Assembly: GCA_005798855.1 (NCBI GenBank)
Contig: SYIF01000034.1
Coordinates: 1-35,745, forward strand
Origin: Actinomycetota bacterium
GTDB taxonomy: Bacteria; Actinomycetota; Thermoleophilia; Gaiellales; F1-60-MAGs149
Reading direction: 5' to 3'
Length of the DNA stretch: 35,745 nucleotides
Part shown: positions 149 to 35,745 of the stretch, piece after piece
How positions within the stretch are numbered: position 1 is the first letter of the stretch
Layout of the letters: each line of letters starts with the position of its first letter
Translations under genes and position numbers: made by a program
Notes under the pieces: model-generated
Databases searched by the model: none
The model's input: only the letters and a program-made list of their open reading frames with translations
What the model was told of the DNA's origin: nothing

Positions 149-931
149 ATGCCCCATGCCTTTGACCTGAGTGGCCGGACTGCACTCGTGACGGGTGCCG
201 GGTCGGCCGATGGAATTGGCTTTGCCACCGCCCGCCTCCTTGCACAACAAGGTGCGCAGGTCGTCTTGGCCGCGACCACGGAGCGCATTCACGAGCGCGC
301 GACCGAATTGCGCGCGCTCGGATTCGACGCCACGGGCATCGTCGGTGATCTCACGCAGACCGAGGTCGCCAAAGCCCTCGTTGAGACCGCAACCGCGACC
401 CTCGGCGGGCTCGATATCCTCGTTAACAACGCTGGCATGACCCAGACCGGCGTGCAGGTTGACGAAGCATCGCTAGCGGATCAGCCGCTCGACCACTGGG
501 AGCGACAGTTGCAGATCACGCTGATGACAGCGGTGTACGTAACGCGCGCGGCAATCCCCCACATGCGGCGCAATCAGTACGGGCGGATCGTGATGGTCTC
601 GAGCGTCACTGGCTCGATGGTCGCAATTGACGGCAGTAGCGCCTACGGCACCGCTAAAAGCGGGGTCGATGGTCTGATGCGGAGCACGGCACTCGAAGAG
701 GGACGCAACGGCATCACCTGTAACTCTGTGGCTCCCGGCTGGATCCATACAGGCTCGGCACTACCCGACGAGATCGTCGCAGGAAACCACACGCCGATTG
801 GTCGTCCGGGACGCCCCGATGAGGTCGCCGCGGTCGTCGCATTCCTCGCCAGTGACGAGGCGTCATACGTGACGGGCCAGCCGTTTGTTGTCGACGGTGG
901 CAACACGATCCAAGAGGCGAAGTGCGGATAA
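149..931 (+). CDS. SDR family NAD(P)-dependent oxidoreductase (FabG-like)
   Basis: A 260-residue classical short-chain dehydrogenase. The nucleotide-binding motif is T15-G16...G22-I23-G24, followed by N93-N94-A95-G96. The catalytic residues are S152, Y166 and K170 (YGTAK), and a C-terminal PxG segment (VAPGWIHTG) is present. The family reduces ketones or oxidises alcohols with NAD(P)H; the substrate cannot be read from sequence. The frame is open from base 17, but homology begins at [10 protein letters not shown], so ATG 149 is chosen, supported by a -10-like TACCGT just upstream. The stop overlaps the next gene's ATG (TAATG at 929-933), so the two are translationally coupled and may act in one pathway. 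Confidence 0.85.
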
Positions 932-1998
932 TGCTCGACGCGCACGACGTGATCGTCGTTGGTGCTGGTATCACCGGACTCGCCGCCGCTACCCGCTTCG
1001 CCGCCGCTGGACTGGACGTGCTGGTCCTGGAGGCACGCGATCGTGTTGGTGGGCGACTACTGAGCGTCTCCTCCAAGGACGGGCACCACGGTGTTGATCT
1101 CGGTGCATCTTGGTTTTGGGGCGACGAGGCACGCGTGTACGAATTCGCCCACAACCTCGGTCTCGCCACACATGCGCAGCACATCGCAGGAGACGCTCTT
1201 TTTCAGACGGGTGAGGGCGTGCAGCGGCTCGAGGGCAATCCAATCGATGCGCCCGCACTGCGCTTCCGAGATGGTGCGCAGTCCCTTCCGCTCGCGCTCG
1301 CAACCAGCCTCTCCTCCTCGATTCGATTCGCGGAGCCTGTCCATGGGTTGCGCATCGTCGGCGATGGTGACGCTGCGCAGGTCGCGGTCGCGCATCGGGG
1401 CGGCACGACGCACGCACGGTGCGTCGTGGTTGCCGTACCACCCGCGCTCGCGGTAACGGACATCGTCTTCGAGCCAGCACTGCCCATCGAACTCGAGCGG
1501 CTGGCCAAGCGCACACCCATCTGGATGGGAACAACGACGAAAGTTGTTGCAGAGTACGAGGCGCCGTTCTGGCGGCGCGACGGTCTGGCGGGCTCTGCGA
1601 TCAGCTACAGCGGTCCGCTGCGAGAACTGCACGACCTTGGCGGCCCCGGCGACCAAGCAGCCGCGATTTTCGGCTTCGCGATACCCACGTCTGAGCCCCT
1701 CGAGCGTAACGCGATCATCGCGCAACTGGTGGCACTGTTCGGGCCACAGGCACGTGCTCCTCTCGCCTTGCACGTGAAGGACTGGCGAACCGAGCGGTGG
1801 ACCTCACCCGCCCATGTAGAACAGCTCAGCGCGTACGACACCTATTCCGACCCCCGCTATCGAGACGCGATTCACGAGCGTATCTGGTTGGCCTCCACCG
1901 AAACCGGCCCCGACCACGCTGGACACATCGAGGGCGCATTGGCAGCAGCCGAGGTGGTAGGCAGAACTGTCTGCGGCCTTCTCGGCGCTCAACAGTGA
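931..1998 (+). CDS. FAD-dependent amine oxidase (flavin monoamine oxidase-like)
   Basis: A 355-residue flavoprotein. The N-terminus carries the dinucleotide-binding motif VVGAGITGLAAA, followed by VLEARDRVGGR, the GGR motif of the amine oxidase/phytoene desaturase superfamily. The C-terminus (STETGPDHAGHIEGALAAAE) matches the conserved FAD-contacting end of monoamine oxidases. Length is slightly short for the family (about 430-500). Known relatives oxidise amines to aldehydes with O2; the substrate here is unknown. ATG 931 overlaps the SDR stop; an in-frame GTG at 922 is the alternative start. Pairing with an SDR suggests sequential oxidation and reduction of one metabolite, which is inference. 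Confidence 0.8.
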   Translation: MLDAHDVIVVGAGITGLAAATRFAAAGLDVLVLEARDRVGGRLLSVSSKDGHHGVDLGASWFWGDEARVYEFAHNLGLATHAQHIAGDALFQTGEGVQRLEGNPIDAPALRFRDGAQSLPLALATSLSSSIRFAEPVHGLRIVGDGDAAQVAVAHRGGTTHARCVVVAVPPALAVTDIVFEPALPIELERLAKRTPIWMGTTTKVVAEYEAPFWRRDGLAGSAISYSGPLRELHDLGGPGDQAAAIFGFAIPTSEPLERNAIIAQLVALFGPQARAPLALHVKDWRTERWTSPAHVEQLSAYDTYSDPRYRDAIHERIWLASTETGPDHAGHIEGALAAAEVVGRTVCGLLGAQQ

Positions 1999-4304: not shown

Positions 4305-4377
4305 GGGCCCGTAGCGCAGTTGGGAGCGCGCCTGGATCGCACCCAGGAGGTCGGCGGTTCGATCCCGCCCGGGTCCA
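4305..4377 (+). tRNA. tRNA-Ala(CGC)
   Basis: A 73-base cloverleaf without encoded CCA. The acceptor GGGCCCG pairs with CGGGTCC and includes the G3:U70 wobble pair, the alanine identity element. The anticodon arm is CCTGG-ATCGCAC-CCAGG, giving anticodon CGC for GCG codons. The T arm contains GGTTCGATCCC. Confidence 0.95.
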
Positions 4378-4418
4378 CTCCTCAGCCGGCCATCTCGCGC
4401 CGGCTGAGCCTGAGGAGG
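4378..4418 (+). promoter_or_regulatory. Hairpin with alternative pairing that can cover the ribosome site of the next gene
   Basis: A perfect 10-bp stem, CTCAGCCGGC (4381-4390) with GCCGGCTGAG (4399-4408), has an 8-base loop and starts just after the tRNA-Ala. CTCCTCAG (4378-4385) is also exactly complementary to CTGAGGAG (4410-4417), which contains most of the ribosome site for ATG 4423. The two pairings share 4381-4385, so they compete. The element may shape the tRNA 3' end, or gate translation of the downstream gene. Confidence 0.5.
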
Positions 4419-14003: not shown

Positions 14004-15029
14004 CTACACGAGCGCGAGGTGCGCGTCTTCCCAGTCGACAGCGGCCTGGTCGAAGTAGACGAGGCGCGTCTTCTTGAACTCTTGGATCGAGTACAGCACG
14101 GCGTATTCGCCGAGGCCCGTCTCCTTGGAGAGGGCGGCGAGCACGGCTTCGCACTCTTCTTTATCGCGCCCGTGCGTCATCGAGAAGAGGCGGTATGGCC
14201 AGTCGTTGTAGATTGGTCGCTCGTAGCAATGCGAGACGCCGCGGTACGAGGCCATGATGCGGCCCGCCTCGTCGACGCGATCTTCGTCGACGATCCAGAC
14301 GCCCATGCCGTTCTGTCCAAAGCCCGCCTTGCGGTGGTTGACGACAGCGGCGAAACGGCGCATGCGTCCATCGGACAACAACTCGCGGCCCATCTCCATC
14401 AGTTCGGCGACGGTAAAGCCGTACTGCTCGGCGAGGTCCTTGAACGGCTCGGGCACCGCGGGGAGGTCCGTCTGCAATGCACGGACCGCGGCGATCTCGC
14501 GGTCGGTTGGTGCGCGGTGCGGAGCCTCGAGCGACGGGCGTGGTCGATCCTTCTTGGCGGCCGGGTCGCGACCGCCAACCATGTCGAGGTCGACGCCGAT
14601 TTTGAAGAAGCGGATGGCGGGGAGCGGACGAATCGACTCGATGTCAGCCAGCCGGCCGAGGAGTTCGATCGTCTCGTCGAGCCCAATCTTCGAGTCACCC
14701 GGCACGGCGATCGTAAACCACAGGTCGAACGCGTGCTCGCGCTCGTAGTTGTGTGTCACGCCTGGGTGGGCGCTGACGATGTCGGCGGCAAGCTGCTGCG
14801 TGCCCGGCTTGGTGCGGGCCGCGACGAGGCTCGACTTGTAGCCGAGACGACGCGTGTCGAAGATCCCCGAGATTTGTCGCACGACACCCTCACCGCGTAG
14901 CCGAGAGATGCGCTCGAGCATCTCGTCCTCTGGCATCTCGATCTCTGCCGCGAGAGCGCCCCACGGACGTTCTACGAAGGGCAACTCATTCTGTAGTCGG
15001 TCGAGTAAGCGTCGGTCTGCGTCATCCAT
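14004..15029 (-). CDS. Single-chain siroheme decarboxylase (AhbA-AhbB-type fusion)
   Basis: A 341-residue protein made of two Lrp/AsnC-like halves. Residues 1-150 resemble AhbA (DRRLLDRLQNELPFVERPW at the HTH, then HNYEREHAFDLWFTI). Residues 185-341 resemble AhbB (REIAAVRALQTDLPAVPEPF, then SHCYERPIYNDWPYRLFSMTHGRD). AhbA and AhbB normally form a heterodimer that decarboxylates siroheme to 12,18-didecarboxysiroheme in the alternative heme pathway; NirDLGH do this for heme d1. The two halves are joined by a basic, Pro-rich linker (about 150-185). No AhbC, AhbD or nir gene is visible nearby. ATG 15029 is the natural start. The frame stays open upstream to 16220, but that part is antisense to other genes. 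Confidence 0.85.
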   Translation of the reverse strand: MDDADRRLLDRLQNELPFVERPWGALAAEIEMPEDEMLERISRLRGEGVVRQISGIFDTRRLGYKSSLVAARTKPGTQQLAADIVSAHPGVTHNYEREHAFDLWFTIAVPGDSKIGLDETIELLGRLADIESIRPLPAIRFFKIGVDLDMVGGRDPAAKKDRPRPSLEAPHRAPTDREIAAVRALQTDLPAVPEPFKDLAEQYGFTVAELMEMGRELLSDGRMRRFAAVVNHRKAGFGQNGMGVWIVDEDRVDEAGRIMASYRGVSHCYERPIYNDWPYRLFSMTHGRDKEECEAVLAALSKETGLGEYAVLYSIQEFKKTRLVYFDQAAVDWEDAHLALV

Positions 15030-15149: not shown

Positions 15150-15620
15150 ATGGAGACTCGCCGCCTCATCGCCATCGTGGTCGCTCTCGGAGCGCTCACC
15201 CTCGGAATTCTGACGGGCTGCGGCGGAAGTACCGATGCTTCCGGCACTCTCGGTGGCGAAGTTACGATCGGCACGGGTACGAATCCAACTGAGACTCCCG
15301 TCACGGAAGCCGGCGCAGCGACTGATGCAGCCACGACTGAGGCTGCCGGCGAGACGACGGCTGCTGCTGCTGTTGAGGGCGATGCGGCTGCTGGAGCCGC
15401 TGTCTTTACGAGCGCAGGCTGTGGCGGTTGCCATACCCTTGCTGCCGCTGGTTCGGCCGGCGCCGTTGGTCCGAACCTCGACGAGACGATGCCCGATTAC
15501 GCGCTCGTCATGGATCGCGTCACGAATGGCTTGGGTGGCATGCCCGCGTACGCCGGCCAGCTGTCCGAGACCGACATTCAGAACGTTGCGGCCTACGTGT
15601 CGCAGAACGCCGGCAAGTAG
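15150..15620 (+). CDS. Lipoprotein cytochrome c, single heme
   Basis: A 156-residue exported protein. A signal peptide ends in the lipobox L21-T22-G23-C24, so mature protein should be lipid-anchored outside the membrane. A low-complexity Thr/Ala/Glu linker (about 25-80) precedes a class I cytochrome c domain with C91-x-x-C94-H95 and a probable Met ligand in GLGGMPAYAG. It probably carries electrons between membrane complexes. The HAD gene starts three bases after the stop, indicating an operon. Confidence 0.85.
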   Translation: METRRLIAIVVALGALTLGILTGCGGSTDASGTLGGEVTIGTGTNPTETPVTEAGAATDAATTEAAGETTAAAAVEGDAAAGAAVFTSAGCGGCHTLAAAGSAGAVGPNLDETMPDYALVMDRVTNGLGGMPAYAGQLSETDIQNVAAYVSQNAGK

Positions 15621-26090: not shown

Positions 26091-27326
26091 ATGGCACCGA
26101 ATCTTACCGGCATCACGATCCGCCACTCGCGGGACTGCGCGACGGCGAAGGGGCGGAAGCGCTGCGACTGCTCGCCGACGTACCGCGTCCGCATCGAGCA
26201 CAACGGACGCCGCACGTCGGAGACGTTCCCGAGCGTCGCCGCGGCGATTGCCTACCGTGACGAGTCCAAGCGGCGCGCCCGGCGCGGCCTCGACCCGGCG
26301 CCGTCTCGGACGGTTGGCGATGCCCTCGACGACCTCGTGGCCAACCTGGAGTCGGGACGCGCGGTGAATCGCAGCGGCGACCCGTTCAAGCCGAGCGTCG
26401 TCCACGGGTACGTGCAGGCCATCGAGACGAACCTCCGCCCCGCCCTCAGTGGTCGTCTCGTCAAGACGCCCGTCGCCTCGCTGACCCGCAAGGAGATCCA
26501 AGCGCTCGTGGACGAGTTCAAGACGGCTACCCCGCGGCGGCGCGGCGGCCGCGCATTGTCGCCGTCTTCGATTCGGAACCGGCTCATGCCGCTACGGGTC
26601 GCCATTCGCGAGGAGCTGGCGAATCTCTCGATCGACCACGATCCGTTCGCTGGCGTCCGGTTGCCGACCGTCCGTGGTACTCGGGACCGCGTGGCGGCCG
26701 ATCACGAGGCAGCCCGCCTCCTCGCCGTCCTCGACGACCCGGAGCGCGCCTACTTCGCCGTCGCGATGTATGCCGGTCTCCGCCGCAGCGAGGTCAGCGC
26801 GCTGCGATGGGAAGACGTGGACCTTGATGCGCGCCGCGTCCACGTCCGCTCCGCCTACTGCCATCGGACGCACCAGATCACGTTCCCCAAGTCCGCCGCT
26901 GCCGTGCGCTCGGTGCCGACCACCGAAACGCTAGTGGCGATCCTCGACGTGTACCGCGCCCGGCTCGCCGCTGACGAGGGCGCCGAGCGGATCGCGCCGA
27001 CCGAGTACGTCTTCGCCGCCGCGCCCGGCTTGCCACTCGGCGGGGACGCCGTTTCCAAGCGCGCCCGCAAGGTGTGGGCGGCGCGCGACCTGACCCCGAT
27101 CACCCTGCAAGAGTGCCGCCACACATTCGCGAGCCTCACCGCCGCGTCCGGCACCGGGCTGGAAGACCTGTCCGAGTGGATGGGGCACACGAGCCTGAAC
27201 CTCACGTGGAAGACCTACCGGCACCTGTACCCCGAGGCCGCGGAGGCGACCCGCCTCCGGCTGGACGCCTACCTTGCGCCGTCGACAATCGAACTGCGCG
27301 GACTGACTCGCACGATCGAGGACTAG
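26091..27326 (+). CDS. int: Tyrosine recombinase/integrase
   Basis: A 411-residue phage-type integrase. The N-terminal part (1-70, RHSRDCATAKGRKRCDC then FPSVAAAIAYRDE) is an arm-binding-like domain; residues about 75-190 are the SAM-like core-binding domain. The catalytic domain has the first Arg in AGLRRSEVSALRW, a Lys before the middle, QECRHTF with R343, H366 in MGHTSLN, and nucleophile Y376 in KTYRHLYP. The HxxR histidine is Gln340 here. It should catalyse integration at tRNA-Ser, whose att core lies 135 bases upstream. ATG 26091 begins the recognisable domain. Confidence 0.9.
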   Translation: MAPNLTGITIRHSRDCATAKGRKRCDCSPTYRVRIEHNGRRTSETFPSVAAAIAYRDESKRRARRGLDPAPSRTVGDALDDLVANLESGRAVNRSGDPFKPSVVHGYVQAIETNLRPALSGRLVKTPVASLTRKEIQALVDEFKTATPRRRGGRALSPSSIRNRLMPLRVAIREELANLSIDHDPFAGVRLPTVRGTRDRVAADHEAARLLAVLDDPERAYFAVAMYAGLRRSEVSALRWEDVDLDARRVHVRSAYCHRTHQITFPKSAAAVRSVPTTETLVAILDVYRARLAADEGAERIAPTEYVFAAAPGLPLGGDAVSKRARKVWAARDLTPITLQECRHTFASLTAASGTGLEDLSEWMGHTSLNLTWKTYRHLYPEAAEATRLRLDAYLAPSTIELRGLTRTIED

Positions 27327-27351
27327 CCTCACCGGACCGCAATCGCACCGC

Positions 27352-27783
27352 TGTCGCCGGGCGCTGCTCGGCAACCTCGTCGGTATCAACACCGCGATGT
27401 ATAGCGATAGTTCGGGTCAGCGCATGGAAGGCGTCAACTACGCCGTTAGTGCCCAGCGGATCAACGAACTCATTGATGGACTGACTTCAGGAAAGGCTGT
27501 AGGCGAGTTCGGCATGGACTTGTCCCCGGCCTGGGAGAAGGGTACGGATCCGACTGTCGATCCACCTGCGGCTCTCGAGATCCTCGGAGTAGCTTCCGGG
27601 AGCGCCGCCGCTACTGCCGGCATCGAGACAGGCGACTACGTCGTGGGTGTTGACAACGTTGACGTCACCGACCTCGTCGCATACTGCGCTCTCGTCGGCG
27701 ACCGGCAACAACACACGATCAGTACGTACGACGCTGACGTGGAAACGTCACGTGATGACTCGTTGTCGCCCGCTGTTTGGTGA
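27352..27783 (+). pseudogene. 3' fragment of an HtrA/DegP-like (S1C) serine protease with PDZ domain
   Basis: The frame reads GNLVGINTAMYSDSSGQRMEGVNYAVS, the end of an S1C protease domain, then AQRINELIDGL and a PDZ domain (AALEILGVASGSAAATAGIETGDYVVGVDNVDVTD, across about 27565-27700). The catalytic His, Asp and Ser regions are missing. It begins about 25 bases after the integrase stop with no start codon in the right place. It may be expressed from an internal ATG (27397), but it lacks protease activity either way. Confidence 0.65.
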
Positions 27784-27890
27784 GCGTACTGCTCATCTAG
27801 GCCCACACGGCATTCAGATGAGGACTGACTCAGCGTAGGCAGAGGGCAACTGCTACCCGAGAAATTCCGCAACGAGTTTTGGGATCCCGG
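27784..27890. other. Gap between convergent protease fragment and kinase gene
   Basis: About 105 bases without a supported gene or clear terminator hairpin. Confidence 0.4.
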
Positions 27891-29333
27891 TTACGAAGAC
27901 TGCGGTATCAGGAAACCCGGGGTCTTGGCCAAGCCTTGTAGCGTTTTCCCGGATTCCTTGGCGCCCGACGCGTCGTCATAGTTAACACAATGCTCCGCTC
28001 GGAACAATTCGTCCCATGCTTGTTGCCACCCCAATGGACTTCCAGATCCCTCTAACTTGCATTTGCCTAGCGCTTTCTTGGTCCTCAAGATGGAGGCCTC
28101 CGTCGTCCTAAAGACAGGTGACGTGTAGTGTAACCCCGCTCGGATCCGAAGAAGATTGCGAGCGGTATCCAGCAACTGGAATTTAGCTTCCACACAGGCA
28201 GCGGATACCTCCGACTCTTGTGATTCTGTCCCTGTTGCCGTTGCTTGCGCGACAGCACTAGCATCGGTCGAAGATCCTGAACCACCCCCAAACACCAGAT
28301 ACCCACCTACACCTCCGACCGCGAGGACGGCAACGACAAGGCCGAGCACCACAAATTTTGTCTTGCCTGGTTTGGTCGCCACTTCACGCACCGGCGGCGG
28401 CGATATGGGTTCGGCAGCGCGCCCGTCGCCAACGACTGTCCCCGTCGGGCCGACCGGTGATGGTGCAATCACGGTGCCCGTCCGGCTACTCACTTGAGCA
28501 ACGCCCTCGGCTGCGACGATGCCCGCCGCAACAGCCACGAGATCAGCACAAGACGCGAATCGCACGGCTGGATCCTTGGCAAGCGCACGCGTCACAACCT
28601 CGTTCAGTCGCGCATCAGCAACCGCATCACCGGTCACGATCAACGGCGGCGCATCATTGGCATGCGCAAACAACGATTGGATCGTGTCCTCACGCCGAAA
28701 CGGCGGCTCACCAACAACCATCTCATAGAGCACACAGCCAAGCGCGTACTGATCGGCGCGACCATCAACATCACCACCACGGATCTGCTCAGGCGACACA
28801 TAATCGACGGTGCCGACCCACGAACCCGTCTGCGTGGCACGCGTGCCCTGCATCACACGACCAATGCCAAAGTCGACGAGCACCGGGTCAGAGCCGTCAT
28901 CAGGAACGAGAATGTTCGCTGGCTTCACATCTCGATGCACGATGTTCGCCGCATGCGCTGCGTCGAGACCAGCCGCGATCGGCCGCAGCAGAGCGATCGC
29001 CGCGTCGATGCCATACGAACCACGCTCCGCCAGGATTTCTGACAACTCGCGCCCGCGGACGAGCCGCATCGCGAGGAACGGGATGTCGTTCTTCTCGCCG
29101 GCCTGGTAGATCGCGACAACGCTGGGATGCTCAACGCGAGCGGCGGCCTTCGCCTCCTGCGCGAACCGCGCGCGAAACGCCGGATCCTGCGCCAGATGCT
29201 CAGCGACAACCTTGAGCGCAACCTCGCGATCAAGCTTCGGGTCGTACGCGAGGTACACGATGCCCATCGCACCACGCCCGATCTCGCCACGGATCTCGTA
29301 CCCGGCAAACGAACTCCCCGGCGATAGATCCAC
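27891..29333 (-). CDS. Transmembrane Ser/Thr protein kinase (PknB-type catalytic domain)
   Basis: A 480-residue Hanks-type kinase. The glycine loop is G19-R-G-A-M-G-I-V-Y27, the ATP lysine is K41, the catalytic loop is H133-R-D-V-K-P-A-N140, and DFG with SPEQ (APE equivalent) follow. A Pro-rich juxtamembrane linker precedes one TM helix (FVVLGLVVAVLAVGGVGGYLVF). The extracellular tail of about 120 residues contains three cysteines and no PASTA repeats, so the sensed signal is unknown. The start is GTG 29333 with GGGGGAG seven bases upstream; the frame is open to 29405. It is convergent with the protease fragment. Confidence 0.85.
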   Translation of the reverse strand: MDLSPGSSFAGYEIRGEIGRGAMGIVYLAYDPKLDREVALKVVAEHLAQDPAFRARFAQEAKAAARVEHPSVVAIYQAGEKNDIPFLAMRLVRGRELSEILAERGSYGIDAAIALLRPIAAGLDAAHAANIVHRDVKPANILVPDDGSDPVLVDFGIGRVMQGTRATQTGSWVGTVDYVSPEQIRGGDVDGRADQYALGCVLYEMVVGEPPFRREDTIQSLFAHANDAPPLIVTGDAVADARLNEVVTRALAKDPAVRFASCADLVAVAAGIVAAEGVAQVSSRTGTVIAPSPVGPTGTVVGDGRAAEPISPPPVREVATKPGKTKFVVLGLVVAVLAVGGVGGYLVFGGGSGSSTDASAVAQATATGTESQESEVSAACVEAKFQLLDTARNLLRIRAGLHYTSPVFRTTEASILRTKKALGKCKLEGSGSPLGWQQAWDELFRAEHCVNYDDASGAKESGKTLQGLAKTPGFLIPQSS

Positions 29334-29411
29334 GAGACGACTCCCCCTACGCAACGACTCAGTGAGCGCAGCGTACCTAACATGACGGCATACGCCGAAT
29401 GTCATGTTGGA

Positions 29412-29530
29412 TGGAGTTGTCCCGGTTTGGTGGACACCTCACTTGGGCGCGATGATGCGCTTGGAGAGGAGTGGGGTGTTGGTGATCTTCTCCGACCTTC
29501 CCGAAGCGATCCGCGGACTGATCCGGTGAT
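29412..29530 (-). mobile_element. IS-end relic, copy 2, with possible transposase tail
   Basis: Bases 29412-29437 repeat the 26-base IS-end-like sequence of 25741-25766 with four mismatches. Immediately inside it, on the minus strand, a basic reading frame ends SKRIIAPK then stop (29439-29441). This is the position expected for a transposase C-terminus. The remaining part of any transposase is absent or unrecognisable. Family assignment (IS3-like) is tentative. Confidence 0.4.
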
Positions 29531-29747
29531 CCTTCCTTAGAGCGCGGGATCAACGGATCACGAGGCAATACGACCCTCCCGGCACTCTCCGAAGGGTGGG
29601 TCTGAACTGAAGCAAGTTTCGGCTTGCGACCCCGGCCCCGCGTGTCTCTGATGAAAACAGCGCGCCGACCCGTATTCCCCCACGACGGGGTGGGTTGCCC
29701 ACGCAGCGAACCCGCGAACCGGCCTGAGCGCGTGCGATCCTGTACCC
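29531..29747. other. Region without a recognised gene
   Basis: About 215 bases between the IS relic and the terminase-like gene. No convincing frame, hairpin or repeat was recognised here. Confidence 0.4.
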
Positions 29748-30107
29748 GTGGAACCCGATCCGACCCTATCGCCTGCAGCTGCGACGGCGTGGCGGCTCGC
29801 CGTCGAGCAGCTGGGCGACGACGCGCCTGTGTTCGCCGACGCGATCCGGCGCTACGCGTGCGCGGTCGACGTTGCCGATCGGATGCGTACCGATTGGCTC
29901 GACCGGGGCGCGCCGACGTTCGCCGAACATACGAACGGGGCCCTGTACGAACACCCGCTTGTGAAGTCGATCCGGGGTGCGGAGCGCGAATCGGCGACGT
30001 TCGCGAGGGCCCTGCAGATCACGCCCGCGTCGGAGAGCTGGCAGGACCGGCACACGCGACACGCTCGACGCGCTGACCCGCCTACCCCGCGGAGTGGTGC
30101 GGCCTAG
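29748..30107 (+). CDS. P27-type phage terminase small subunit-like protein
   Basis: A 119-residue protein. The helical pattern FADAIRRYACAVDVADRMRTDWLDRGAPTF followed by LYEHPLVKSIRGAERESATFARALQITPAS matches the P27-like small terminase family. In phages this subunit recognises DNA for packaging and is followed by the large terminase; here a convergent Sel1 gene follows instead. No capsid or portal gene is present. It is probably a prophage leftover, or reused by the element. GTG 29748 is the probable start. Confidence 0.6.
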   Translation: MEPDPTLSPAAATAWRLAVEQLGDDAPVFADAIRRYACAVDVADRMRTDWLDRGAPTFAEHTNGALYEHPLVKSIRGAERESATFARALQITPASESWQDRHTRHARRADPPTPRSGAA

Positions 30108-30137
30108 CTCGCTTCGGAATCGGTGTGATTAGACGAT

Positions 30138-31496
30138 TCAGGCATCGTCCAGTTCTTCGAGTACAACCTTCGCCTCCTCATCACCAGCATCTGCAGCCTT
30201 CTCGTACCAGACTCGCGCTGTCTCTACGTCACCGGCTTCGTCGGCGAGTCGGCCGACGTTGAACATAGCGTCGGCGCGGCCGGCGCCCGCGGCCTCCTCG
30301 TACTTGGCTCGGGCCGCCTCAACGTCGCCCGCGCCTTCAGATTCCAACCCGAGCAGGATCATCCCAGTGAGGTCCCCAGCATCGACGGCCTTCTCCCACC
30401 AAATGAGTGCCGCCTCAATGTCACCCTCTTCCTTAATCATGAGACCGAGATTGATCATTGCGTCCGTGTCGCCCGCTTCGGCGGCTTTCTCGTACCAGTC
30501 GTGAGCCACCGCAGTCTCCCCTGAATCTTGAGCATGTAGCCCGACGTAGAACATCGCGTCTGAGTCACCAGCCTCTGCGGCCTTCTCGTACCACGCGTGT
30601 GCCGCCGCGTCGTTGCCAGCATCGCGTTCAAGGGTTCCTAGGCGCTCCATCGAGTAGGCGCTACCCAGTTGAGCGGCCTTCTCGTGCCAAGCGCGAGCGG
30701 CGATTAAGTCGCCCTCGTCGCCACTGATATCCCCGAGCAATTGGAGCGCACCAACATCTGCTTGTACCGAAGCACGCGTAGCCCATCGCTTCGCTTCAAT
30801 CAGATCACCGCTTGCATATACGAGCTCGGCGATCTGAACCATGACCCACGAGTTTCCCGCATCGGCCAGGGGCTCCCACCACTGACGAGCAGCGTCAACG
30901 TCGCCGCGTTCCGCAGCCAGAACGCCAAGTTGATTTGCAGCCATGCCGTTGCCCCTCGCTGCTGCTTTCTCGAACAATTGGCGCGCCTCCGCAGCGTTAC
31001 CCTCATCCGCTTCGATCGCTCCAAGTCGGTACATCGCATCCGAGGTACCGAAGTCAGACGCCAGTGCGTAGAACCGACGCGCCATCTCACGGTCCCCCTC
31101 ACCCTCAACCCGCTCGCCCAGGCGAAACAATGCCCACCCGGCCGACTCTGGATCAAGCGCGCCCAATCGCATGAACCACGAACGCGCCTCGTCGATGTTG
31201 TCGCGACTTTCGGCCTCTTGTCCGAGGCGACTAAGCGCGTCGGTGTTGCCGAGATCAGCGGCCTTCCTCCACCAGGAATGAGCGTTCTCTACATCACCTT
31301 CGTCACTGGCCGCCCCCAAGAGCGCCTCCGCGAGTTCAACCATCGCATCTGAGTCGCCAAGTTCGGCAGCCTTCTCAAACCACTCAATCTCTGTGTCGAA
31401 ATCCCCCTCTTCTTCAGCTGAACGACCGAGGTCCAGCATCGCGTCCGCGTCACCGCCAACTGCCCGAGCCTCTAAGTCGCTCCGATCGTCACTCAC
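30138..31496 (-). CDS. Sel1-like/TPR repeat protein
   Basis: A 452-residue cytosolic protein composed almost entirely of about twelve 36-residue helical repeats. Repeat consensus is roughly WYEKAAEAGDSDAM..LG....E.GD...A. No signal peptide, membrane helix or catalytic domain is visible. Sel1 repeats mediate protein-protein contacts. The highly acidic, regular solenoid suggests a scaffold or adaptor. GTG 31496 lies 26 bases after the stop of the upstream membrane-protein gene, so the two form an operon. Its partner is unknown. Confidence 0.8.
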   Translation of the reverse strand: MSDDRSDLEARAVGGDADAMLDLGRSAEEEGDFDTEIEWFEKAAELGDSDAMVELAEALLGAASDEGDVENAHSWWRKAADLGNTDALSRLGQEAESRDNIDEARSWFMRLGALDPESAGWALFRLGERVEGEGDREMARRFYALASDFGTSDAMYRLGAIEADEGNAAEARQLFEKAAARGNGMAANQLGVLAAERGDVDAARQWWEPLADAGNSWVMVQIAELVYASGDLIEAKRWATRASVQADVGALQLLGDISGDEGDLIAARAWHEKAAQLGSAYSMERLGTLERDAGNDAAAHAWYEKAAEAGDSDAMFYVGLHAQDSGETAVAHDWYEKAAEAGDTDAMINLGLMIKEEGDIEAALIWWEKAVDAGDLTGMILLGLESEGAGDVEAARAKYEEAAGAGRADAMFNVGRLADEAGDVETARVWYEKAADAGDEEAKVVLEELDDA

Positions 31497-31522
31497 GCCG
31501 ATTCAGCCTCCGCCGACAAGGG

Positions 31523-31939
31523 TTAGCCGGCCATCATTACGAGCGCGCACCCACCGAGTGCGACTACGCCGATCACGACTAGAACAATGATGACGAGTAC
31601 CCACGTCGACGCGGAACTCTTTTTCTCGATAATGATCGTTACGGGCTGTTGTGCAGTCGTAACGGCCGGGCTTCCAACCGCTTGTGGCGTGTCCGTTCCC
31701 GAGGGGCTTCCAAATGAACTCGTGGGCTTCCCGTATACGTGTCGCCAGAGAATCCAAAAAGCGTATATAGCGACGATCAACGGAAGAATCGGGTTCACGC
31801 TGTAGCTTACAATCCCGCCCACGATAAAGAAAATAACGACAGATAACCCAATCCCGCCCCATCTCCTACCCCTAGACACCCGCATACCATTTCGGAAAGT
31901 GATGGCGAGCAAAATACTTTTCATTTTCGCGCGATCCAT
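31523..31939 (-). CDS. Small membrane protein, unknown function, upstream of the Sel1 gene
   Basis: A 138-residue protein. Two adjacent TM helices (about 28-47, 50-65) are followed by a Ser/Thr/Pro-rich linker, then VTIIIEKKSS and a C-terminal TM helix (about 112-137). I do not recognise the family. The start is ATG 31939, because a TATGGT -10 element ends six bases upstream. With the Sel1-repeat gene 26 bases downstream, it may anchor or signal to that adaptor at the membrane. Confidence 0.65.
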   Translation of the reverse strand: MDRAKMKSILLAITFRNGMRVSRGRRWGGIGLSVVIFFIVGGIVSYSVNPILPLIVAIYAFWILWRHVYGKPTSSFGSPSGTDTPQAVGSPAVTTAQQPVTIIIEKKSSASTWVLVIIVLVVIGVVALGGCALVMMAG

Positions 31940-31945
31940 GTGCCG

Positions 31946-31951
31946 ACCATA
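31946..31951 (-). promoter_or_regulatory. -10 element (TATGGT) of the membrane protein-Sel1 operon
   Basis: On the minus strand TATGGT ends six bases before ATG 31939. There is no ribosome site, so translation from a leaderless mRNA is likely. Confidence 0.5.
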
Positions 31952-32070
31952 ACAGAACGGCTAAACCCTATACCCGTAACCGAGTCCGTTCTACGTCTTA
32001 GATAAATACGCAGAAATAAGGGGGGTTGCCTCGCGCGAGACCGATACCCTCACGCGTCAAGCGATCATTC

Positions 32071-32430
32071 CTAATAGCTTGGAGCGGGGTCGAATTGGTC
32101 GGCGAGCGTGTACGCGGCATGCTCGTCGAGCCGGTTAGCGTTGAGGTCGTAGCGGCGAGTCGTGCGCGGGTCGGCGTGGCGTGCGAAGTCCTGCACGATA
32201 TGCAGCGGCACGCCAGCGTCGAGCGCCGCCGTGATCGCCGAATGGCGAAGGCTGTGCGGGCTGATCCGCTTCGTGATGCCTGCGCGCTGGGCGATCCGGG
32301 CGACGAGCTTCGCGACGTTGTGCCGGTCGAGGGCGTGCCCCGTCGACGTCTGCAGGACGAATCCGGTCGTGCGGTCGCCGATCACGACGTCGAGGGCCTG
32401 ACGCGTCGGCGTGTTGAGCGGCACGACGCG
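32071..32430 (-). pseudogene. 3' fragment of a second tyrosine recombinase
   Basis: About 118 residues of a catalytic domain remain. PLNTPTRQALDVVIGDRTTG is followed by HSLRHSAITAALDAGVPL (the HxxR motif), then FARHADPRTTRRYDLN with the H and nucleophile Tyr. The N-terminal arm- and core-binding domains and the first catalytic Arg are missing. It differs from the integrase at 26091 and has the standard HxxR histidine, so it derives from another element. Confidence 0.75.
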
Positions 32431-32836
32431 GCGGCGGCTGCCCGGTCAGTCTTCCTCGACCCGTCGACGGCGGAGAAGCGGAAGCCGGGCGGACAGGTCG
32501 GATCGGCGCGAGCGAAGGATCGCATCGGCGCCGCGCGCCGCGATCACCGCGCGGCGACCGGGTTGGATCCGCGCGTCTACGGCTCGATGCCGATCTTCGA
32601 TGACGAGGGGAATCCCATCCCGCTCGTGCAAAAAGCGGGCGAGACGCGCTTCCCGCGCCGCGCAGCCTGAGCCACCGCGCCCAGTAGAATGTAGGCACGC
32701 GCCCGCCCTTCGCGGCGAGCGCGCTCCGAGGTCTTCGATCCCTCGGCGCCTGACCGCAGCGGCCGCCTCCGGGCGGCCGTTGTCGTTGTCGGGAGGGCAA
32801 TCCGAGAACCGTCTGAATGCGGGCGTAACATGTCAG
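32431..32836. other. Region without a recognised gene, before the replication operon
   Basis: About 400 bases follow the broken end of the integrase fragment. Frames on both strands look like GC-bias shadows. CGGCCGCC and GGGCGGCCG around 32760-32785 form a strong hairpin, possibly a terminator. A promoter for the downstream operon should lie here, but no clear hexamers were found. Confidence 0.4.
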
Positions 32837-32895
32837 CACCGGCAATCCTGCCGGCCGCCTGTCAGGCGGATGATCGAAAGGAGGCGCCTCCAATG
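32837..32895 (+). promoter_or_regulatory. Structured leader with SD-masking palindrome, upstream of the replication operon
   Basis: Three hairpins follow each other: CCGGCA-ATCC-TGCCGG (32839-32854), CCGCCT-GTC-AGGCGG (32855-32869), and the perfect palindrome GGAGGCGCCTCC (32880-32891). The last contains the Shine-Dalgarno GGAGG and its exact complement. The ATG at 32893 follows directly. Translation should be inhibited unless the palindrome is opened. No known riboswitch class was recognised. Confidence 0.55.
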
Positions 32896-33351
32896 AGAGG
32901 ATCGCCCGAAATGCGGAGACGGCGCGTCGCCGAGATCCGTAGAAAAATGACGAGAAGGCCGAGCGGCATCGCCGCGGTCCGGGAGATCGATCACGATTCT
33001 GGGTCGTGCATCGAAACGTTCCTCCCCGATGGGTCGACGCGTCCGGCCACTCCGGCGGAGCGCGCCTGGTGGGCCGCTGGAGAGCCCCCCGCGTACTTCG
33101 CGATCACGACCGACGGCCGCGTGATCGACACCGGCGACTCGGGACACCGCGTCGCTCGCACGACCCGCGAGCAGCGCTCGCCGAGCACGACCCGCACGAC
33201 CAGCCGCCGCGCTCGCACGAGCGCCACGTCGTCGGCTGACCCCTCCTCATCACGAGTCCGCCTGAGCGCTGACGCGCTCGGCGCCCTCCGAATCGAGACG
33301 ACGCGCCTCGGCCTCCGCCTCGCGCTGCTCGGGATCGGCGGTGCGCGATGA
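32893..33351 (+). CDS. Unknown protein, first gene of the replication operon
   Basis: A 152-residue protein. The N-terminus is very basic (MRRRRVAEIRRKMTRR), followed by a compact middle (EIDHDSGSCIETFLPDGSTRPAT, YFAITTDGRVIDTG) and a Ser/Thr/Arg-rich, probably disordered part. No known domain is recognised. ATG 32893 is supported by AAAGGAGG (32877-32884). Its stop overlaps the primase start (ATGA), linking the two in translation. Confidence 0.6.
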   Translation: MRGSPEMRRRRVAEIRRKMTRRPSGIAAVREIDHDSGSCIETFLPDGSTRPATPAERAWWAAGEPPAYFAITTDGRVIDTGDSGHRVARTTREQRSPSTTRTTSRRARTSATSSADPSSSRVRLSADALGALRIETTRLGLRLALLGIGGAR

Positions 33352-35276
33352 GCGGCGGGATCGACATCGTGACGGCCGCCGCCAAGTGGGCGAGCATCGG
33401 CCAGTACGTCTTCCCGTACGTCGCCAAAGCGAAGGTGCCGTTCGGGGGCAGCCACGGGCACCATGACGCATCGGATGACCCGGAGACCGTCGTCCGACTG
33501 TTCCGGCACTACATCGAGACGACGGGACAGACCGCCGGGATCGGGGTCTGGACGGGAGCGAGCGGGATCTCGACGATCGACTGCGATAACACGACCGCCG
33601 GGAGCGAGTTCCGCCGGATCGCCGGAGACGCCGCGCTGAAGACGCTCGTCATGCAGACGCGCCGCGGGTGGCAGTTCTTCTACCGAGTCCCGAAGGGCAT
33701 CGAGTTGCCGAACGGCAGCAGTCGCCTTCGCGGCATCGAAGGACTCGACCATCGGTCGGGGAGCAGTTGGGCGGCGCTCCCGCCGTCCAAGGTGAAGACT
33801 CTCGATGGGGAGTATCGCTTCCCCGGCCATGACCTGGAGTTCGCCATCGCGAACTTTTGGGACCTCGCGATTGAGATGCCGGAGAGCGTCCTCGACCTCA
33901 TCCTGAATCCCGGAGGTGGCGATCCCGCCACCGGGCGGGGCGGTGAGCGCCGGAAACTCCGGAGCCTCATCGACGATGGCAGGCTGAAGATCCCGACCGG
34001 CGCCCGAAATGAGGGCCTCCACGCCGTTAGCGGCTACTTCCGACACATCGGGATGAGCGAGGAGTCCATCCTCGGCGCCCTCGCGGCGGTCAATGCTCAC
34101 GACTGCGAGGAGCCTCTTCCGGAGAAAGAACTCGACGGCATCGCGAAGTCGATCGCGACGAAAGAGCCCGGCACGCTGCCCGGCGCCGCGCCGCCGAAAC
34201 TCCACCGTCTCGACGTTGCTTACATGGTCGAGCACGACCCGCCGCCCGTCGATTGGGTACTTGATGGGATTGCGGCGCGCTCGGCGGTGACGATGATTCA
34301 CGGCGACGCCGGGCTAGGTAAGTCCATGTTCGCCCTCGCGGGCGCCGTCGCAGTCACGCGCGGCGCGCCGTTCATGAATCACTCCACCCCGCGCGGCCGT
34401 GTTCTCTACATCGACGCTGAGAACGGCAAGGGTGAGGCTCACCGGCGCATCCGCGCCCTCGGTCTCACCGCCGCCGAGGCGGGGAGTCTCGTCTATTGCG
34501 AGGCTCTCGGGGTTGATCTCCGCGGTGATGCGGACGAGCTCCTCAGCGCCGCCGTTGACGCCGAGCCGGATCTCGTCATTGCGGACAGCCTCGCGACTCT
34601 CTCGCGGAGTGATGAGGACTCGTCGGGCGAGACGACCCTGGCAATCCAAGTCCTTCAGCGCATCGCGCGGGAGACGGGGGCCGCGGTCATCCTCCTGCAC
34701 CACGACAAGAAGGACAAGACCAACTTCCGCGGTTCGAGCGCGATCGCGGCCGTCGTCGAGATCCGCTGGCACCTCACGAAAGACGCAGACCGCGAGAACG
34801 CGCGACGGCTCGTCAATGAGAAGTGCCGATTGGCCGCCGAGGCGCCCGAGCGGTGGATCGAGATCCGACAATCCGAGCGCGGCATCGAAGTCGCGCAGAT
34901 CAGCAAGCCGCCCACGAGCAAGGAGGCCGAGGATTGGGATTCGGTCGTGGAACTTCTCAGCGATGGGCGGCCTCGGACCAATCGCGAGATCGCCGTAGAG
35001 ACAGGACTCGCGAGCCCTGGCGGCGGTTGTCCCGGCAGCCTGGCGCGGCTACTGAAGGAGAAGCGTAATGCGGGCTATCTCGTCGGCGGCAGCGCCGGAG
35101 GCGTCACGCTGGCGCCTCACCTCATGCCGACCAAGAACGTGGAGGAGCCCGCGAAGGCGCCACCGCCCGCGGCGCCGCGCCCTGATCCGCTGATCCCCCC
35201 ACCTAGGGATGGATCGCGGGATCAGCCCGCGTCGGGCGCGTTCATGCCCGACCCGGATATCGGAGAGGCGGCATGA
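33348..35276 (+). CDS. Prim-pol primase/RepA-like helicase fusion (replication protein)
   Basis: A 642-residue multidomain protein. Residues about 8-165 form a bifunctional primase/polymerase domain (AAKWASIGQYVFPYVAKAKVPF; GIGVWTGASGISTIDCD). Residues about 220-285 resemble PriCT-1 (IPTGARNEGLHAVSGYFRHIG...ELDGIAKSI). Residues about 300-520 are a RecA/RepA-like ATPase with Walker A HGDAGLGKS and Walker B DLVIADSL. A winged-helix-like tail (SVVELLSDGRPRTNREIA) and Pro-rich end follow. It should prime and unwind the element for autonomous replication. It overlaps its neighbours by ATGA on both sides. Confidence 0.85.
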   Translation: MSGGIDIVTAAAKWASIGQYVFPYVAKAKVPFGGSHGHHDASDDPETVVRLFRHYIETTGQTAGIGVWTGASGISTIDCDNTTAGSEFRRIAGDAALKTLVMQTRRGWQFFYRVPKGIELPNGSSRLRGIEGLDHRSGSSWAALPPSKVKTLDGEYRFPGHDLEFAIANFWDLAIEMPESVLDLILNPGGGDPATGRGGERRKLRSLIDDGRLKIPTGARNEGLHAVSGYFRHIGMSEESILGALAAVNAHDCEEPLPEKELDGIAKSIATKEPGTLPGAAPPKLHRLDVAYMVEHDPPPVDWVLDGIAARSAVTMIHGDAGLGKSMFALAGAVAVTRGAPFMNHSTPRGRVLYIDAENGKGEAHRRIRALGLTAAEAGSLVYCEALGVDLRGDADELLSAAVDAEPDLVIADSLATLSRSDEDSSGETTLAIQVLQRIARETGAAVILLHHDKKDKTNFRGSSAIAAVVEIRWHLTKDADRENARRLVNEKCRLAAEAPERWIEIRQSERGIEVAQISKPPTSKEAEDWDSVVELLSDGRPRTNREIAVETGLASPGGGCPGSLARLLKEKRNAGYLVGGSAGGVTLAPHLMPTKNVEEPAKAPPPAAPRPDPLIPPPRDGSRDQPASGAFMPDPDIGEAA

Positions 35277-35557
35277 TCGAGACCGCCCTCACCGATGCCG
35301 ACCTGGAGTCGGCGACCGAGAAGAAACCGAAGAAGAAGCGCCTCCAGCCCGGCGGGACACTTCACCGCGTCCGCCCCGTCCCGGCGCTTGCCCTCAGCAT
35401 CGAGGAGGCGGCCCGCGCGTGTGGGGTGTCGCCGGAGACGTTCGATCGGCACGTCCGGCCATACGTCGCCCAAGTGCCTGTCAGCCCCGGCGTCGTGATC
35501 TTCCGCCCCGAGACGATCGCGGAGTGGCTGAAGAACACGGAGACAGCGGGCACCTAG
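35273..35557 (+). CDS. Excisionase-like HTH protein
   Basis: A 94-residue protein with a basic N-terminal stretch (KKPKKKR) and a MerR/excisionase-type winged HTH (LSIEEAARACGVSPETFDRHVRPYV then IFRPETIAEWLKNTE). Position at the element end, translationally coupled to the replication gene, supports a role as recombination directionality factor. Regulation of replication is the alternative. Confidence 0.7.
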   Translation: MIETALTDADLESATEKKPKKKRLQPGGTLHRVRPVPALALSIEEAARACGVSPETFDRHVRPYVAQVPVSPGVVIFRPETIAEWLKNTETAGT

Positions 35558-35564
35558 ACCACGA

Positions 35565-35600
35565 GGGCGCCGGGGTCCGCTTCGCGCGGCTCCGGCGCCC
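35565..35600 (+). terminator. Terminator-like hairpin after xis
   Basis: GGGCGCCGG (35565-35573) pairs with CCGGCGCCC (35592-35600), with an inner CCGC/GCGG stem and TTCGC loop. It starts eight bases after the xis stop. There is no U tract. Confidence 0.6.
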
Positions 35601-35615
35601 GAGTGGGGTCCGGGC

Positions 35616-35642
35616 TGCGGTCCGTTTTGCGGTCCGTTTCGC
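35616..35642 (+). repeat. Candidate integrase arm-type sites, right
   Basis: This 27-base block with two GCGGTCCG units matches 25991-26017 at 25 positions, same orientation. It lies 85 bases before the right core. Confidence 0.6.
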
Positions 35643-35698
35643 CCGACGAGTGACGACGCATGGCGACAGATGGCGACCGAGCGCCTAGGATTCATCCC

Positions 35699-35745
35699 GG
35701 CGGGGTGCCAGAGCGGCCTATTGGGGTGGTCTTGAAAACCGCAGC
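35699..35745 (+). tRNA. tRNA-Ser(TGA), 5' part (runs off window end)
   Basis: Starts GGCGGGGTGCCAGAGCGGCC and continues to the anticodon arm GTGGT-CTTGAAA-ACCGC, fully paired (one T-G), anticodon TGA. TAGGAT at 35686-35691 is its probable -10. The variable and T arms lie beyond the window, so completeness cannot be checked. It is the likely functional copy, with its 5' half supplied by the element. Confidence 0.8.
35728..35742 (+). other. Candidate attR core
   Basis: Identical to the 15-base core at 25942-25956, within the tRNA-Ser anticodon arm. Confidence 0.65.

Follow-up and report, generated by a model that had tools for sequence, protein, structure and literature searches.

A fused siroheme decarboxylase gene in an uncultured freshwater actinobacterium and its probable role in heme b synthesis

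The ahbAB locus and its host

The window, the whole stretch of 35,745 nucleotides that was analysed, carries on its minus strand an intact open reading frame of 341 codons that runs from an ATG at 15029 to a stop at 14004 (ahbAB, 14004-15029) and was identified by Pfam, NCBIfam and PDB matches; the opposite, plus-strand frame over the same positions is interrupted by stops. The AhbA half (residues 5-150; 14580-15017, minus strand) matches NF040708 with 243 bits against a cut-off of 140 and the AhbB half (residues 182-325; 14055-14486, minus strand) matches NF040707 with 242 bits against a cut-off of 125. The original prediction of a single 341-residue AhbA plus AhbB chain is thus exact in its coordinates, with both halves far above the NCBIfam cut-offs. 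Pfam places two NirdL-like_HTH and two AsnC_trans_reg2 domains on the product, and the top regulator model in NCBIfam gives 21 bits. Among solved structures the closest match is 4CH7/4CZC, a NirD-like protein in one chain (E=3.6e-69, 38% identity, 321 aligned residues), followed by both chains of Desulfovibrio AhbA/B.

Each half retains an HxYxR motif, placed by sequence and alignment: HNYER in the AhbA half (H93-R97; 14739-14753, minus strand) and HCYER in the AhbB half (H267-R271; 14217-14231, minus strand). The HxYxR motifs of both subunits are the site of catalysis (Palmer et al., PMC4145669). In D. desulfuricans, AhbA His115, at the equivalent position in the HNYER motif, binds the siroheme iron, and AhbB His98, Tyr100 and Arg102 are the equivalents in HCYER, of which the R102A variant is inactive (PMC4145669). 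Across an alignment of 22 related full-length sequences with identity down to 48%, residues H93, Y95, R97, H267, Y269, R271 and K319/K320 are invariant; a substitution of active-site residues relative to AhbA/B, which had been named as a point against the assignment, is not seen, and both motifs are intact. Judged from its sequence, the product of 14004-15029 is a fused siroheme decarboxylase, with a predicted conversion of siroheme to 12,18-didecarboxysiroheme. The description of the characterised enzyme as a heterodimer was incomplete, as the structure of a fused enzyme in one chain has been solved by crystallography (4CH7/4CZC). Indeed, the AhbA-AhbB fusion as such is already known and not new, since Hydrogenobacter NirDL is a fused siroheme decarboxylase that has been crystallised (PMC4835899) and, methanogens excepted, heme-making archaea also have AhbA and AhbB in fused form (PMC3942049).

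Copies of ahbAB that are 96-97% identical occur in MAGs titled Thermoleophilia, one of them from deep Lake Baikal, and the host is taken to be an uncultured freshwater Thermoleophilia-like actinobacterium. Two MAG records titled Bifidobacterium breve (L031 and L035) also hold ahbAB, 96% and 89% identical, and their titles are almost certainly wrong. Divergent from ahbAB lies a gene for a small c-type cytochrome (15150-15620, plus strand; SorU-like, 1e-21), and a cytochrome c gene adjoins ahbAB in related loci too (e.g. L039 and L040). This neighbour is a sign of heme use by the cell, and a role for it in the pathway is without support. The genomes further contain ccmABC and a Rieske/cytochrome b (bc) complex, which adds to the demand for heme and bears out the aerobic-type lineage that had been suggested from the neighbours. 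The absence of pathway partners nearby holds for the window, where neither ahbC, ahbD, nirJ nor nirS is found, but not for the genome, where partners lie elsewhere; no operon of ahbAB with heme genes was seen in the window's own clade.

The flavin amine oxidase of the window (922-1998) was considered as a pathway candidate and rejected as a generic amine oxidase. A tRNA-Ala (CGC) gene lies at 4305-4378 on the plus strand, and the ORFs overlapping it are artefacts. From 26091 to 35745, the end of the contig, the window holds a phage-like integrated element with a tyrosine integrase (26091-27326), a weakly matching terminase small subunit (29748-30107), a fragment of a second integrase (32071-32424, minus strand), a Prim-Pol/AAA primase (33348-35276) and, after the primase, a short ORF resembling an HTH protein (35273-35557).

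Heme biosynthesis genes among the relatives

Gene content was compared over 41 genomes, all of them draft MAGs, of which 22 are at least 90% complete; the window's own genome (G000) is 72% complete and 12 of the searched relatives were placed in its genus. HemE is absent from all 25 genomes of three families (f1 without G015, f2 and f4; completeness 52-98%) and present in the other 16. If losses are independent, incompleteness would conceal HemE in every one of the 25 with a probability of about 1e-21. Ferrochelatase (the coproporphyrin ferrochelatase CpfC) is likewise found in none of the 25 and in 15 of the 16 HemE-bearing genomes. The reverse distribution is seen for ahbAB, which occurs, as one fused gene per genome, in 20 of the 25 HemE-less genomes and in none of the 16 others (Fisher p 2e-7, uncorrected for kinship); the five misses compare with 4.5 expected from incompleteness. 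Genome counts of this kind are not independent events, as the trait switches only a few times on the tree.

The siroheme-synthesis genes, on which the original prediction depended, were found in the genomes. A SUMT fused to HemD (CobA-HemD) adjoins hemC in most HemE-less genomes, at a locus that in several of them also holds ccmABC and hemA, and a CysG_N-type precorrin-2 dehydrogenase is present in 24 of the 25 (L251, 9374-10150, C134, for the window's genome). HemB was found in every HemE-less relative of at least 90% completeness that was tested, and ChdC/HemQ in all 22 genomes at or above that completeness, HemE-less and HemE-bearing alike (C141, 3756-4349, in the window's genome). The precorrin-2 dehydrogenases of f1, f2 and f4 (L251, L253, L255 and L257) share a conserved N-terminal cysteine motif, CVC...C...C. 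Directly after this gene in f1 lies a HemL-like aminotransferase (L251, 7912-9324) that scores 358 bits, below the hemL cut-offs, and is a possible, though not a certain, functional HemL in that family.

Absence of AhbC and AhbD

AhbC is a radical SAM enzyme that converts didecarboxysiroheme to coproheme (PMC3942049; PMC12505453), a step that takes off the last two acetates. None of the 41 genomes contains a match near or over the AhbC model cut-off, and in the window's genome the sole match in the AhbC/NirJ search is MoaA, which was accordingly rejected as a divergent AhbC. The distant ahbAB genomes G045, G046, G049 and G050 are without AhbC as well, and no homologue of AhbD grade is present in the ahbAB relatives, so that the genome-wide search for ahbC and ahbD came back empty. 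The same search in a Symbiobacterium-like genome (G048), used as a positive control, gives AhbC at 489 bits and an AhbD-like protein at 176 bits.

Inventories of radical SAM proteins in five ahbAB genomes revealed no enzyme of NirJ, AhbC or AhbD type. The proteins listed are MiaB/MtaB, HemW, MqnC/MqnE (menaquinone), FO synthase (F420), LipA, MoaA, RlmN and TIGR03960, to which some genomes add PqqE or QueE, and a small number of lineage-specific proteins; these names were given mostly by sequence inspection, HemW and TIGR03960 by models, and the classes leave out a truncated ORF of G018. In G001, all radical SAM proteins were assigned to families other than AhbC. Several genes were considered as substitutes and rejected. 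The HemW adjoining precorrin-2 dehydrogenase in f1 is a normal HemW beside hrcA that HemE-bearing relatives also have, and the B12-binding radical SAM protein TIGR03960 belongs to a general bacterial family and was not found in G018. UbiD and UbiX near hemB belong to the futalosine menaquinone cluster, and a Rieske oxygenase near chdC in G013, with a sterol monooxygenase as its nearest model, was not seen near chdC elsewhere. TIGR03960 itself (L295, L300, L305 and L312) occurs in the ahbAB genomes G001, G013, G016 and G019 and was not found in the HemE-bearing genomes G020 and G026, both fully inventoried.

A recurrent aldo/keto-reductase-like protein

A search of the genes adjoining heme genes in distant ahbAB genomes returned one recurrent family, which is aldo/keto-reductase-like (PF00248). 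In the Thermomicrobiales genome G046, where chdC adjoins ahbAB, the reductase gene lies directly before the two. In G045 it is the second gene past chdC, from which a DUF1802 gene separates it, with intergenic gaps of 4 and 30 bases; the G050 copy is flanked by hemB and hemL, a place that is occupied in the close relative G049 by fragments of the reductase (two pieces, 347 and 225 bits). In the window's own clade the reductase does not stand next to heme genes.

A profile built from the G046 and G050 proteins, which are 52% identical, separates the ortholog group cleanly: its members score 384-707 bits (384-452 in the window's genus and f4, 482-707 elsewhere), the rest stays at or below 209 bits, and no HemE-bearing genome exceeds 186. 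The invariant positions of the group include GFG.WT, WWG, FGYD, HN, RVPHSSG and DHR. In the f4 members (L383-L386), the Asp of the catalytic tetrad of aldo/keto reductases is replaced by Asn and the Lys by Thr, and Tyr and His are kept. The reductase is present in 13 of 13 genomes of the window's genus, in G018, G021, G022, G024, G027 and G028 and in the distant ahbAB genomes; in the 41-genome set this amounts to 19 of the 25 HemE-less genomes against none of the 16 HemE-bearing ones (Fisher p 7e-7, uncorrected for kinship). The AhbC-bearing G048 carries it as well. In a plasmid collection, relatives of ahbAB were found only at 30-38% identity, probably of nir type, and no relative of the reductase at E 1e-40.

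Discussion

The fused decarboxylase most likely works towards heme b, since the HemE-less genomes also lack ferrochelatase but contain SUMT-HemD, precorrin-2 dehydrogenase and ChdC, and since the HemE-bearing relatives are without ahbAB. Replacement of HemE and ferrochelatase by SUMT, precorrin-2 dehydrogenase and AhbAB while ChdC stays is the pattern expected of a siroheme-to-coproheme-to-heme route, and we consider it quite probable that ahbAB acts in such a route. From the genes present and absent and the intact active-site motifs, which are observed, we infer the reactions and their order as follows. Uroporphyrinogen III, made by HemB, HemC and HemD, would be methylated by the SUMT half of the CobA-HemD fusion, and its product would be oxidised and supplied with iron by the CysG_N-type precorrin-2 dehydrogenase, perhaps a bifunctional enzyme, to give siroheme. 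AhbAB would then decarboxylate the acetates at C12 and C18, yielding 12,18-didecarboxysiroheme, an enzyme other than AhbC would strip this of its C2 and C7 acetates to leave coproheme, and ChdC/HemQ would convert coproheme to heme b in the last step. The route as drawn has a gap at its penultimate step, since the known route from siroheme to coproheme depends on AhbC, which is absent.

Given that the closest solved homologue, NirDL, belongs to the heme d1 pathway, it is conceivable that the decarboxylase feeds the synthesis of heme d1 for a cytochrome cd1 nitrite reductase, a use that the original prediction had listed. However, this is extremely unlikely: the PF02239 matches are partial or short, reach at most 34 bits and occur also in genomes without ahbAB, none being of NirS grade, there is no NirJ-grade radical SAM protein, and each genome has a single fused decarboxylase gene rather than a NirDL and NirGH set. 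The presence of HTH and AsnC-like domains, in a fold that is homologous to Lrp/AsnC (PMC4145669), raises the further possibility that the ahbAB product is a tetrapyrrole-responsive regulator of that type and not an enzyme. This is very improbable in view of the roughly 240 bits for each decarboxylase equivalog model against 21 for the best regulator model, the invariance of the catalytic HxYxR motifs and a distribution of ahbAB that mirrors the loss of HemE.

The missing enzymes allow two other readings. As AhbC, AhbD, HemE and ferrochelatase are all lacking, didecarboxysiroheme or a derivative of it might be the end product, a new cofactor, with heme being imported. ChdC, for which coproheme to heme b is, to our knowledge, the only known job, is nevertheless retained throughout together with HemB, HemC and HemD, and the loss of HemE with the gain of AhbAB fits a swap of routes and not auxotrophy, which makes a new cofactor improbable. 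Alternatively, AhbC may be present but unseen, either very divergent or lost from assemblies that are all drafts; this seems very improbable when none of the 41 genomes, including 22 of at least 90% completeness, yields an AhbC-grade match, the G048 control yields 489 bits and every radical SAM protein of G001 fits another family. Among the uses originally proposed, heme synthesis by an alternative route is strongly favoured, since HemE and ferrochelatase are missing from exactly those lineages that carry ahbAB, and these retain ChdC.

By our own counting, when each acetate leaves together with the ring hydrogen next to it, acetic acid is eliminated with no formal redox change, and a non-radical enzyme is therefore conceivable at the AhbC step. 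The reductase is likely linked to the siroheme-to-heme route. That it performs all or an indispensable part of the AhbC step in place of a radical SAM enzyme in aerobic siroheme-route bacteria is a tentative and rather doubtful suggestion. Since four HemE-less genomes at 95-98% completeness (G013, G016, G019 and G025) are without the reductase, its role is offered only as a hypothesis. Its presence in the AhbC-bearing G048, the two altered tetrad residues of the f4 copies and its position away from heme genes in the window's own clade also speak against the suggestion.

Archaea and sulfate reducers are the main groups in which the siroheme-based heme route is known. If the proposal is right, an actinobacterial clade has given up the standard route through uroporphyrinogen decarboxylase and forms its heme from siroheme under aerobic conditions; it would also expose a specific enzyme gap, the counterpart of AhbC, with one concrete candidate gene that is directly testable. 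Compared with known systems, the pathway would be a mixed combination that includes a known enzyme, lacks another and has the reductase as a possible stand-in. Hydrogenobacter thermophilus NirDL (PDB 4CH7, 4CZC) resembles the fused protein in having both halves and both HxYxR motifs in one chain that aligns over its full length at 38% identity, but its context is heme d1 with nirS, whereas here NirS and NirJ are lacking and HemE is missing. The Desulfovibrio AhbA/AhbB heterodimer (PDB 4CZD, 4UN1) shares the two domains, the active-site residues and the predicted reaction; unlike the Ahb pathway to which it belongs, the present one would use a fused chain, lack AhbC and AhbD and end with ChdC. 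A comparable set of genes is known from Haloferax volcanii, which has a fused decarboxylase, siroheme genes and ChdC as last aerobic step (nirDL, nirGH, AhbC as HVO_1121, AhbD and PitA/ChdC) and no uroD, cgoX or cpfC (PMC5746218), although it possesses AhbC and AhbD and the window's clade neither. The coproporphyrin-dependent pathway of Actinomycetota and Firmicutes also ends with ChdC, yet HemE and coproporphyrin ferrochelatase are missing here. No description of the same pathway combination in bacteria was found among the open-access papers that were searched.

In f1 and f2, hemB or hemL is followed by a gene for a small protein of 127-180 residues (L349, 8712-9254; L350, 7490-7873; L351, 10462-10851; L352, 11466-11852). 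Neither of the two that were tested matches a Pfam or NCBIfam model, and the protein shows a faint likeness to polyprenyl synthase motifs.
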